Translations under genes and position numbers: made by a program
Part shown: positions 29,294 through 33,159 of the stretch, piece after piece
How positions within the stretch are numbered: position 1 is the stretch's first letter
How the letters are laid out: each line of letters begins with the position of its first letter
The notes under the pieces: model-generated
Seen by the model: only the letters and a program-made list of their open reading frames with translations
Database searches by the model: none
Told to the model about the DNA's origin: nothing
Origin: Sinosporangium album
GTDB lineage: Bacteria; Actinomycetota; Actinomycetes; Streptosporangiales; Streptosporangiaceae
DNA: 64,000 bases
Assembly: GCF_900100605.1 (NCBI RefSeq)
Contig: NZ_FNCN01000017.1
Span: 1 to 64,000, forward strand
Direction: 5' to 3'

Positions 29294-29932
29294 TCAGACG
29301 AGGCGGCGGGCGTTGGCCCAGCGGGAGAGTTCGTGGCGGTTGGAGAGTTGGAGTTTACGGAGGACGGAGGAGACGTGGGTTTCCACGGTTTTGACGGAGA
29401 TGAAGAGCTCTTTGGCGATTTCCTTGTAGGCGTAGCCGCGGGCGATGAGGCGGAGGACTTCGCGTTCTCGCTGGGTGAGGGAGTCGAGTTCGGGGTCGAT
29501 GGGAGGCGCTTCGGTGGAGGCGAAGGCGTCGAGGACGAAGCCGGCGAGGCGGGGGGAGAAGACGGCGTCGCCTTCGGCGACGCGGCGGATGGCGTCGGCG
29601 AGTTCTCGGCCGCTGATGGTTTTGGTGACGTAGCCGCGGGCGCCGCCGCGGATGACGCCGATGACGTCGTCGGCGGCGTCGGAGACGGAGAGGGCGAGGA
29701 ATCGCACGTGGGCACCTGAGCCGAGGACGCGCCGGAGGACTTCCTGGCCTCCGCCGCCGGGCATGTGGACGTCGAGGAGTACGACTTCGGGCTGGAGTCT
29801 GGCGATCTCCGCGACGGCGGAGTCGACGTCTTCGGCTTCGCCGACGACCTCGACGGCGTCGCCGAGTTCGGCGCGGACGCCGGCCCGGAAGAGGCGGTGG
29901 TCATCGACGATCAGTACCTTGACGGGGCTCAC
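29294..29932 (-). CDS. NarL/LuxR-family response regulator
   Basis: The 212-residue protein has a receiver domain (1-120). The acidic pair D10/D11, the phospho-acceptor Asp in L-L-D-V-H-M-P-G and the conserved Lys in V-T-K-T-I-S are present. A LuxR helix-turn-helix (about 145-210) shows L-T-Q-R-E-R-E-V-L and K-T-V-E-T-H-V. It overlaps the kinase gene by 4 bases (ATGA), so the pair is translationally coupled. Likely targets are the inverted-repeat array at 31184-31265, including its own promoter; this is inferred from position. Confidence 0.93.
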   Translation of the reverse strand: MSPVKVLIVDDHRLFRAGVRAELGDAVEVVGEAEDVDSAVAEIARLQPEVVLLDVHMPGGGGQEVLRRVLGSGAHVRFLALSVSDAADDVIGVIRGGARGYVTKTISGRELADAIRRVAEGDAVFSPRLAGFVLDAFASTEAPPIDPELDSLTQREREVLRLIARGYAYKEIAKELFISVKTVETHVSSVLRKLQLSNRHELSRWANARRLV

Positions 29933-31146: not shown

Positions 31147-31183
31147 GTTCCCTGCATCGTCACATGTCAGACGGGGTAATCGC

Positions 31184-31265
31184 ATCAGGGCCGGGCCCTG
31201 ATAGGTCCCCTATAAGGGATATCAGGGCATCGGCCCTGAGCAGGCGCCCTGAGGTGTGACACCTC
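31184..31265. promoter_or_regulatory. array of inverted repeats in divergent promoter region
   Basis: Three motifs are visible. ATCAGGGC-cgg-GCCCTGAT at 31184-31202 is perfect. TCAGGGC-atcg-GCCCTGA is at 31222-31239. GAGGTGT-g-ACACCTC is at 31251-31265, preceded by another GCCCTGA. The first two share the same half-site and their centres are about 37 bases apart. They lie between the two-component system and the PspC-protein operon. Confidence 0.65.
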
Positions 31266-31325
31266 CGGGACGTCTCAGGGGTGTCCCCGATGTCAGCCCC
31301 ACCTGCGAAAGGCCACGATGGTGAC

Positions 31326-32897
31326 ATGACGGACAGCGGGATCGATCCCAGTGAGCCCGCGCAGAGGCACGGCGACGGTGAAGCCGGGGACGCGGGGACG
31401 GCGACCGCGCGGCGCAGGGAGCTCCGGCGGTGCGATGAGGGGCGCATGTTCACCGGAGTCTGCGCGGGACTGGGGAGGCACGCCGGGATTGACCCGGTGC
31501 TGTTCCGCGTCGCGTTCGCTCTGCTGTTCGTCGCCTCGGGAACCGGGCTCATGCTGTACGCGGCGGCTTTTCTCCTGATGCGCAACCCGCAGGGCCGGCC
31601 CGGCCTGGCCGGGCAGTGGACACGCCGTTCCTTCAGCGATGAGACGGTGTTCGCCCTGTTGACCGCCATCTTCACGATCGGTCTGCTGCTCAGCCTGGCA
31701 GCCGGGGGCATCGGCTTGGACACGCTGCTGGTGGGCACCCTGCTCGCCATCGCGGTGCTCGCGGCCCGCGCCCACGGAGCCGACCTGATCGGCCTGGCGC
31801 GCTCCGCGCCCGACCGGGTCGGCGCGTGGCGTGCGAAGGGCGGGGAGGCGGGGCCCGAGCCGTACGGCACCGCCGAAGCTCAGCCGCCGCGACCCGAGTC
31901 GCCGCCCGCGCCTTTGACGCCTCCGGTGCCTCACCCGTTCGCTGAGGCACCGGAGGCGCGCACACGGGTGTCGGCCCCCCTTCGAGCGCCCGCTCAGAGG
32001 GCCGAACCCGCTCCTTCGCCCGCTCCTGGGACGGTGGAGCATCCGCGGCCGGGCTCCGCCGTACCGCCGCACGGGCAGACCCTCGGCGGGCTCGGCTTCG
32101 CGGCGTCCAGCGAGCCGTTCGCCCCGCACGGTCCCTATATGCCGGGTGAAGGCGATGTACGGCGGGGGCCGTACCAGCCGCTCGATCCGCGCCGACGCGG
32201 TGAACACGTCGGCGCCTCCCAGGTGCCTCCTGTGGCGACCGCCCCGCCACCGGCGAAGGCACCGCGGACAGCGAAGAAACGGACTCGGCCGAAGTCCTAT
32301 GTCGGCGCGGCGACGCTGTGCCTCTCGATGATCGTTGGAGGTGTCGTCGTGGCGACACAGTCGGTTCCGGGAAGCGTGAACGTCCCGGTGGTGGGCGGTG
32401 CGGTTCTGGTGACGATCGGGCTCGGGCTCCTGGTGGCCACGTGGTTCGGGCGGGGAATGGGCCTGGTGGCCGCGGGCACCGCCGTGGCGCTGGTGCTGAT
32501 GGTGGGGTCGGCGGTGAGCGACACGCCGGGGAGGGGCGCGACGATGACGTGGGCTCCAACGAGTGCCGCGGAGGCGAACAGAACATACAAGCTGGGATTC
32601 GGGTCCGGCACGCTGGACCTCAGCGGCCTCGTGCTCGCGCCGGGGAGCAGGACCACGTTCGACGCGGAGGTCTCGGTCGGCGAGCTCACGGTGATCCTTC
32701 CACCGACGGTCCGGGCCGAGGTCGACGGGCGTGTCCGCATCGGGGACGTGCAGATCGGTCATTCGGTGAGGGGCGGCACGGGCGTCCGGCATCGCATGGT
32801 GCTTGAGCCGGAGGTGCCGCCTAAGGGCGCGGTGGCCACCATTGTGCTGAACGTCGTGGCGGGCATCGGCGATGTGGATGTGCGGCATGCTGCCTGA
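31326..32897 (+). CDS. PspC/LiaF-like membrane protein
   Basis: The protein has about 523 residues. An N-terminal PspC domain (about 30-90: G-R-M-F-T-G-V-C-A-G-L-G) is followed by membrane helices, a long Pro/Ala-rich cytoplasmic linker (about 170-320) and a second membrane block of three helices (about 325-405). It ends in a beta-rich domain (about 425-520: G-S-G-T-L-D-L-S-G-L, V-S-V-G-E-L-T-V-I-L-P) like the C-terminal LiaF/DUF2154 domain. LiaF proteins inhibit cell-envelope two-component systems, so this could feed back on the divergent kinase. ATG codons at 31281 and 31293 are alternative starts. Confidence 0.85.
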   Translation: MTDSGIDPSEPAQRHGDGEAGDAGTATARRRELRRCDEGRMFTGVCAGLGRHAGIDPVLFRVAFALLFVASGTGLMLYAAAFLLMRNPQGRPGLAGQWTRRSFSDETVFALLTAIFTIGLLLSLAAGGIGLDTLLVGTLLAIAVLAARAHGADLIGLARSAPDRVGAWRAKGGEAGPEPYGTAEAQPPRPESPPAPLTPPVPHPFAEAPEARTRVSAPLRAPAQRAEPAPSPAPGTVEHPRPGSAVPPHGQTLGGLGFAASSEPFAPHGPYMPGEGDVRRGPYQPLDPRRRGEHVGASQVPPVATAPPPAKAPRTAKKRTRPKSYVGAATLCLSMIVGGVVVATQSVPGSVNVPVVGGAVLVTIGLGLLVATWFGRGMGLVAAGTAVALVLMVGSAVSDTPGRGATMTWAPTSAAEANRTYKLGFGSGTLDLSGLVLAPGSRTTFDAEVSVGELTVILPPTVRAEVDGRVRIGDVQIGHSVRGGTGVRHRMVLEPEVPPKGAVATIVLNVVAGIGDVDVRHAA

Positions 32898-33159
32898 CCC
32901 GACCGGCCCGACCGCCCCGACCGCCCCGACGCGCGCTCCGGAGGGGGCTCCGACCGAGGGGCGGCGTGAGCGCCGGATGCGCCACCGGACCGACTGGATG
33001 GCGCTTCTCAGCGGCCTCCTGTTCATCAGCATGGGCGTGGCGTACATCACGGGGAGCGCCACCGACGCTTACCAGATGGTGCCCGTCCTGGTCGCGGGCC
33101 TCGGTTTCGCGGGGCTGGTGGCGATCATCGCCCGCGTCGTGCGCGGCCCCGACCGTTGA
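32872..33159 (+). CDS. small two-helix membrane protein
   Basis: The protein has up to 95 residues. A Pro/Thr/Ala-rich N-terminus and a basic R-R-E-R-R-M-R-H-R stretch precede two transmembrane helices (about 43-60 and 68-88). The start overlaps the end of the preceding gene; ATG codons at 32872, 32878 and 32887 are possible. The overlap implies translational coupling, so it should belong to the same envelope-stress unit. I recognise no named family. Confidence 0.65.
   Translation: MWMCGMLPDPTGPTAPTAPTRAPEGAPTEGRRERRMRHRTDWMALLSGLLFISMGVAYITGSATDAYQMVPVLVAGLGFAGLVAIIARVVRGPDR

Follow-up and report, generated by a model that had tools for sequence, protein, structure and literature searches.

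Two back-to-back copies of a predicted operator between the divergent genes of a probable EsrISR-type envelope-stress locus in Sinosporangium album

Between a PspC-kinase operon and a divergent PspC/LiaF-like gene in Sinosporangium album lies an intergenic region that we read, with good confidence, as the bidirectional promoter region of an EsrISR-type envelope-stress system, which would be activated by its regulator from two back-to-back operators. The repeats in this region are very likely the binding sites of a control switch with which actinobacteria appear to turn on cell-envelope repair genes, those of the system itself included. We examined the region within the 64,000-nucleotide stretch of DNA that was analysed (the window), in orthologous loci and in 296 genomes of the class. 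Four things were computed here: how well the operator is conserved, its fixed spacing, its off-locus sites ahead of such genes, and how often it occurs together with the kinase. Coordinates of all features are collected in Table 1.

Table 1. Features of the locus, in window coordinates.
Feature	Position	Strand	Evidence or remark
NarL/LuxR-type response regulator (EsrR-like), presumed operator binder	29294..29932	-	Pfam Response_reg 3.8e-20, GerE 1.1e-20
Sensor kinase with N-terminal PspC (EsrS-like), 405 aa	29929..31146	-	Pfam PspC 1e-16, HATPase_c 5.7e-07
-10-like GACGAT of the kinase promoter	31156..31161	-	Predicted +1 at 31149 (3-nt leader); position read from the window sequence
Kinase-facing operator TAGGGG-N5-TCAGGG-N5-CCCTGATG	31183..31212	-	17/19 positions; holds the first inverted repeat
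First inverted repeat TCAGGGC-CGG-GCCCTGA	31185..31201		Spacer 3
Extra half-site cluster TCAGGG-N7-TCAGGG-N6-CCCTGATA	31220..31252	-	Holds the second inverted repeat; absent from S. siamense
Second (middle) inverted repeat TCAGGGC-ATCG-GCCCTGA	31222..31239		Spacer 4
Third palindrome GAGGTGT-G-ACACCTC	31251..31265	.	Perfect 7-1-7 palindromes number 13 in the window; missing from S. siamense
Main operator TCCGGG-N5-TCAGGG-N4-CCCCGATG	31264..31292	+	Faces the LiaF-like gene; covers -62 to -34 relative to the predicted start
-10-like CACGAT	31314..31319	+	Occupies -12 to -7 relative to the predicted leaderless start; from base counts per column at 119 loci
PspC + transmembrane + LiaF-like C-terminal domain protein (EsrI-like)	31326..32897	+	Divergent from the kinase; PspC 5.9e-17
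Small protein gene	32872..33159	+	Overlaps the LiaF-like gene end; tblastn match in 70/80 related loci; start codon uncertain

The first-pass annotation had placed these repeats between a PspC kinase system and a divergent PspC/LiaF operon, with PspC domains encoded on both sides. The domain matches bear this out and show the regulator of the kinase operon to be of the NarL type. The kinase and regulator genes overlap by 4 nt. Pfam HisKA_3 gave no match in the window kinase, for which weak NarX/NarQ/MacS similarity was seen. EsrISR-like kinases are widespread in actinobacteria: 187 of the 296 class genomes have a homolog with an E-value no worse than 1e-30, several of these matches not spanning the PspC part. 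In an alignment of the LiaF-like protein with 21 orthologs, PspC was found in 22 of 22 sequences and LiaF-like_C in 21 of 22 (E 0.01 or better); the window copy of the latter reached 20 of 29 bits, under the curated cut-off. The predicted structure of this protein was of low overall quality (mean pLDDT 58.8), and the C-terminal beta domain alone was used; this domain matched PDB 4qrk (E 9.4e-05), which was the best fold match and also the sole PDB sequence match. The small protein gene downstream probably belongs to the same operon as the LiaF-like gene. None of the six proteins scanned at the locus matched PspA.

Repeats crowd the 179-bp intergenic region. It contains six TCAGGG/CCCTGA half-sites, a number reached by 0 of 2000 dinucleotide-preserving shuffles of the same sequence (mean 0.27, maximum 3). 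Perfect 7-mer palindromes with spacers of 0-5 numbered five, counting overlapping registers, against a shuffle mean of 0.13 and a maximum of 4. With its six exact half-sites the window tops all 149 loci scored, the runner-up having five. Three repeats had been described here at first pass, two built on the half-site TCAGGGC with spacers of 3 and 4 and the third being GAGGTGT-G-ACACCTC; their positions are exact, and half-sites and palindromes alike exceed the shuffle expectation. As a functional unit, the three palindromes gave way to another arrangement, a single kind of three-half-site operator present twice in divergent orientation, of which the main copy had been missed: the interval described (31184-31265) stops where the most conserved element (31264-31292) starts.

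The nearest named relative, Sinosporangium siamense of the family Streptosporangiaceae, has a kinase 89% identical to that of the window. The one genome labelled as being of the same genus (G298) carries a locus sequence identical to that of S. siamense. The third palindrome is weak as evidence, because 13 perfect 7-1-7 palindromes occur across the 64-kb window and because it is absent from the S. siamense locus. Being ordinary in number and missing from the nearest relative, it was discarded as an operator component and is probably incidental. The middle inverted repeat is also absent from the S. siamense locus and was dropped as a conserved site; it may be an extra weak site.

Across relatives, the strongest conserved element was TCMGGG-N5-TCAGGG-N4-CCCNGATG, facing the LiaF-like gene. 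Its general form, present as two back-to-back copies, is TCAGGG-N5-TCAGGG-N4/5-CCCNGATG. The footprint sample comprised regions 5' of the kinase in 80 named relatives and in further genomes of the class; 149 loci were scored (the window and 148 of the 149 others) at a threshold of 16 of 19 positions. Of the 149 orthologous regions, 132 carried the LiaF-facing operator at this threshold or better and 63 the kinase-facing operator, with 17 and 86 loci, respectively, below threshold. Shuffled regions, one dinucleotide shuffle per locus, gave 0 of 149 for each. By group, the LiaF-facing site was retained in 72 of 80 (L003-L082), 28 of 29 (L092-L120), and 31 of 39 loci (L121-L140 and L221-L240), and the kinase-facing site in 39 of 80, 16 of 29, and 7 of 39. 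Loss of the half-sites from orthologous promoters was what the first-pass annotation had said would count against its proposal, and these counts answer in its favour. We also trained a weight matrix exclusively on 31 distinct off-locus sites, all from other genomes. It scored the main operator at 34.7 bits and the second-best place in the 64-kb window at 8.2.

The operator stands at a nearly constant distance from the gene it faces. An ORF longer than 150 aa began 32-35 nt past the operator end at 119 of 132 loci (33 nt at 56 loci, 34 nt at 46), compared with 23 of 396 control slots. In the window, the ATG of the LiaF-like gene at 31326 is exactly 33 nt past the operator. Columns aligned on the start codon across the 119 loci revealed a -10-like box, with A-11 in 96, T-7 in 99, and C-1 in 113. 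At 55 of the 63 kinase-facing loci, a TGTGACGAT-like motif ended 26-27 nt past the operator, the same spacing as on the LiaF side. Fixed operator-start spacing together with a -10-like box beside the ATG suggests leaderless promoters, transcribed from the A of the ATG and activated by a proximal dimer at about -43. The longest ORF of the LiaF-like gene (538 aa) begins at a GTG at 31281 and overlaps the operator; the ATG at 31326 gives 523 aa. Because of the promoter geometry the ATG is preferred over the GTG, which supports it as the likely true start of the gene.

This geometry bears on the sign of regulation. Fixed spacing with a proximal dimer near -43 is typical of class II activation, and the 32-35-nt spacing kept at 119 loci therefore speaks against the opposite arrangement, in which the regulator would block both promoters and stress would relieve the block. 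Such repression would suit an operator that overlaps the -35 region, and it has a precedent in the C. glutamicum EsrISR system, which represses the nlpC operon under stress (PMC9960051). Against it, three known-regulon genes including esrI are upregulated under secretion stress (PMC6975037). We consider repression very unlikely and favour activation. The geometry also weighs on a reading of the inverted repeats as RNA hairpins in leaders, acting by attenuation or as a riboswitch, for which the perfect, GC-rich inverted repeats of the intergenic region speak. All of the repeats lie upstream of the predicted transcription starts, and the direct repeat and the fixed spacing are kept across relatives. 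The region contained neither an Rfam match nor a terminator-like site, on which grounds an RNA element was ruled out; we regard its probability as negligible.

To follow the operator beyond its own locus, we searched the 296 class genomes for the 19-position pattern, allowing up to one mismatch and using the reversed pattern as control. The pattern matched 85 times in 53 genomes, the reversed pattern 0 times in 296. Of the 53 pattern-bearing genomes, 52 belonged to the 187 that have a kinase homolog and one to the 109 that have none (Fisher p 8e-11, on raw counts that ignore genome size and phylogeny). The lone match in a kinase-less genome (G205) fell within a 388-codon stop-free stretch. Since 41 of the 85 matches sit at the kinase locus (32 by coordinates, nine judged by a long PspC gene downstream), this co-occurrence is partly trivial; the other 44 lie elsewhere. 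At one mismatch, 135 of the 187 kinase-bearing genomes had no match, and by our own count three of 27 genomes in one family (f18) had one.

These data also help to decide which protein reads the element. We strongly infer that it is the linked response regulator. A different factor, such as a sigma factor of the ECF type or a regulator encoded elsewhere, might instead read it and count the two-component system as just one target. The aligned promoters have no recognisable -35, a GATG tail occupies the place of the -35, and no sigma-70 consensus promoter was matched in the region, all of which would accommodate such a factor. However, direct plus inverted half-sites spread over 29 bp look more like the target of a dimeric NarL-family regulator than like a -35/-10 pair, and the pattern occurs almost only in genomes that have a kinase homolog. 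The regulator itself is 75% and 77% identical to two aligned orthologs from other families, its HTH being near-invariant in the three aligned sequences from three families. A different factor is thus unlikely, and the linked regulator remains the preferred reader.

We examined the genes 3' of all 44 off-locus sites. Pfam matches included PspC (8), DUF4097 or Toastrack (6), DUF1707 (5), DUF4870 (5), MMPL (3), HAAS (2), beta-lactamase (2), ABC ATPase (2), and a CAAX-type protease (1); one HAAS protein scanned singly was just under the cut-off. PspC, Toastrack, DUF1707, or HAAS genes followed the element at 21 of the 44 sites, and five sites preceded one 148-149-aa membrane protein with no Pfam match in the copy scanned. 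By our own sorting ten sites had no clear envelope target, one of them preceding a GAF/ANTAR protein. A start codon lay 32-35 nt past the operator at 19 of the 44 sites (control, 27 of 264), and the other 25 had no start codon of an ORF of at least 75 aa at that distance. Proteins with DUF1707 and DUF4870 (L205, L208, L210, L214, and L244) recur 3' of the operator. Because four of these five have no start codon at 32-35 nt, their mRNAs may have leaders. Two sites from one genus (L215 and L216, in G209 and G200 of g78) share similar operator and promoter-like sequences with no obvious protein downstream and possibly precede a small RNA or small ORF.

The same predicted operator is carried by distant genes and by the regulator's own locus, there at both divergent promoters. 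The evidence leans towards a single class-wide, PspA-free, phage-shock-like regulon, in which an EsrR-type regulator would read a 29-bp three-half-site operator placed between about -62 and -34 in leaderless promoters. Its predicted members are PspC, Toastrack, SHOCT-like (DUF1707), HAAS, and small membrane protein genes, plus the kinase and inhibitor of the system itself.

Within the S. album genome (7.06 Mb, 97 contigs), the strict pattern TCAGGGC-N2-6-GCCCTGA found this locus alone and had no second place; relaxing the pattern exposed the regulon. The relaxed pattern gave eight matches, two at this locus, one before a gene for a 147-aa membrane protein and five without a convincing target. 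Another pattern scan of the genome gave five matches, two of them on C31 and C65. Spacing-constrained scans were noisy (19 and nine matches versus five and two for the reversed-pattern controls), and from these we kept, beyond this locus, only the sites before a PspC gene and a DUF1707/DUF4870 gene. The former is a weaker copy (three mismatches) 5' of the PspC gene at C43:10563, and the latter has two mismatches and lies on C44, where the scan with five matches had located it as well. In total, three of the four PspC genes of S. album have the operator, counting the weaker copy; the fourth (L282) has none.

The 147-aa membrane protein gene with an upstream operator lies at C43:60856-61299 of the S. 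album genome (G000; L089, L141). Its 147-149-aa protein was matched in 33 of 61 family genomes, with no Pfam match in the relative's copy that was scanned. An upstream operator was recognisable by eye in 21 of 25 loci and lacking in the four most divergent (L162-L165). Divergent homologs of the gene were tried as a negative control, which was not clean, as 30 of the 32 genomes searched have a kinase homolog. The protein is a candidate new envelope-stress protein.

From sequence comparison we infer the following course of events, in which regulator binding, activation, inhibition by the LiaF-like protein, the transcription starts and the kind of signal are all predictions. The divergent PspC/LiaF-like membrane protein would inhibit the PspC kinase until envelope stress lifts this block, and the freed kinase would phosphorylate the NarL-type regulator. 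Regulator dimers would then bind the proximal inverted pair TCAGGG-N4-CCCNGA, centred at about -43; a third half-site, in direct orientation, lies farther upstream. Bound in this position, the regulator would recruit RNA polymerase in a class II manner to promoters with a -10-like box and no recognisable -35, yielding leaderless or nearly leaderless mRNAs. The predicted targets at the locus are the kinase operon and the LiaF-like inhibitor, which would provide negative feedback. Distant targets would be PspC, Toastrack, DUF1707/DUF4870, HAAS, and small-membrane-protein genes. A closed envelope-stress feedback loop, as proposed at first pass, is probably right in kind and matches the EsrISR arrangement; it is not new in kind.

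The EsrISR-type gene arrangement and its feedback loop are already known in kind. What appears to be new is the predicted operator anatomy, the leaderless class II-like geometry and the class-wide regulon. We identified no description of the operator among the literature matches listed, which were judged mostly by title and the start of the abstract; Kleine 2017, the original EsrISR paper, may report an EsrR motif. With a defined operator and a fixed promoter geometry, the regulon should become predictable in EsrISR-bearing genomes. DUF1707/DUF4870 proteins, DUF4097 lipoproteins, and the 147-149-aa membrane protein gain a testable role in envelope stress. The idea of a PspA-free phage-shock response, as set out in PMC11237479, becomes directly testable.

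Among actinobacterial NarL-type regulators, that of MacRS from Streptomyces coelicolor has a defined binding consensus (PMC9739842). The window kinase scored 94 of 300 bits against the MacS model, far under its cut-off. The MacRS consensus is palindromic, and its site sequence differs from the TCAGGG operator. Section 7 of that paper and the accessible part of PMC8594442 contain nothing on the present system.

The LiaFSR and VraTSR systems of Firmicutes combine a LiaF-like_C membrane protein, a sensor kinase, and a LuxR-type regulator, and the S. album locus resembles them in all three. However, the LiaFSR genes form one operon, whereas the LiaF-like gene of S. album diverges from the kinase and regulator genes. 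The LiaFSR kinase is not known to carry a PspC fusion. LiaFSR targets the PspA homolog LiaH, unlike the S. album locus with its lack of a PspA match among the six proteins scanned. The Firmicutes operon is named liaIHGFSR (PMC11237479). Section 26 of the same source describes a PspA-free, Lia-like actinobacterial system in which genes for a PspC-kinase and a REC-HTH protein stand opposite a divergent PspC(/Toastrack) gene and share their promoter region with it. This is the gene arrangement found here; that section describes neighbourhoods and neither operator nor regulon.

The closest counterpart, likened by description, is EsrISR, with its PspC sensor kinase, linked response regulator, and adjoining gene for a PspC-type inhibitor. 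EsrISR is cg0706-cg0709 of Corynebacterium glutamicum, formerly CgtSR7, with HisKA_3 reported for the kinase CgtS7 (PMC3353115); EsrI inhibits EsrSR and the locus is autoregulated (PMC7283102). The system has been bench-tested in C. glutamicum and is reported to be activated by antibiotics such as bacitracin and vancomycin (PMC7283102, PMC6975037, PMC9960051, PMC10963414, PMC9239133, PMC3353115). Its regulon is reported to include ABC transporters and a gene annotated 'putative stress responsive transcriptional regulator' (PMC7283102, PMC6975037, PMC3353115, PMC9239133). Two features set the S. album locus apart from EsrISR as described: its membrane protein adds a LiaF-like C-terminal domain, and an operator with a predicted leaderless geometry is defined here. 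The divergent placement of the gene and the presence of PspC are shared, as C. glutamicum EsrI is divergently encoded and has PspC.
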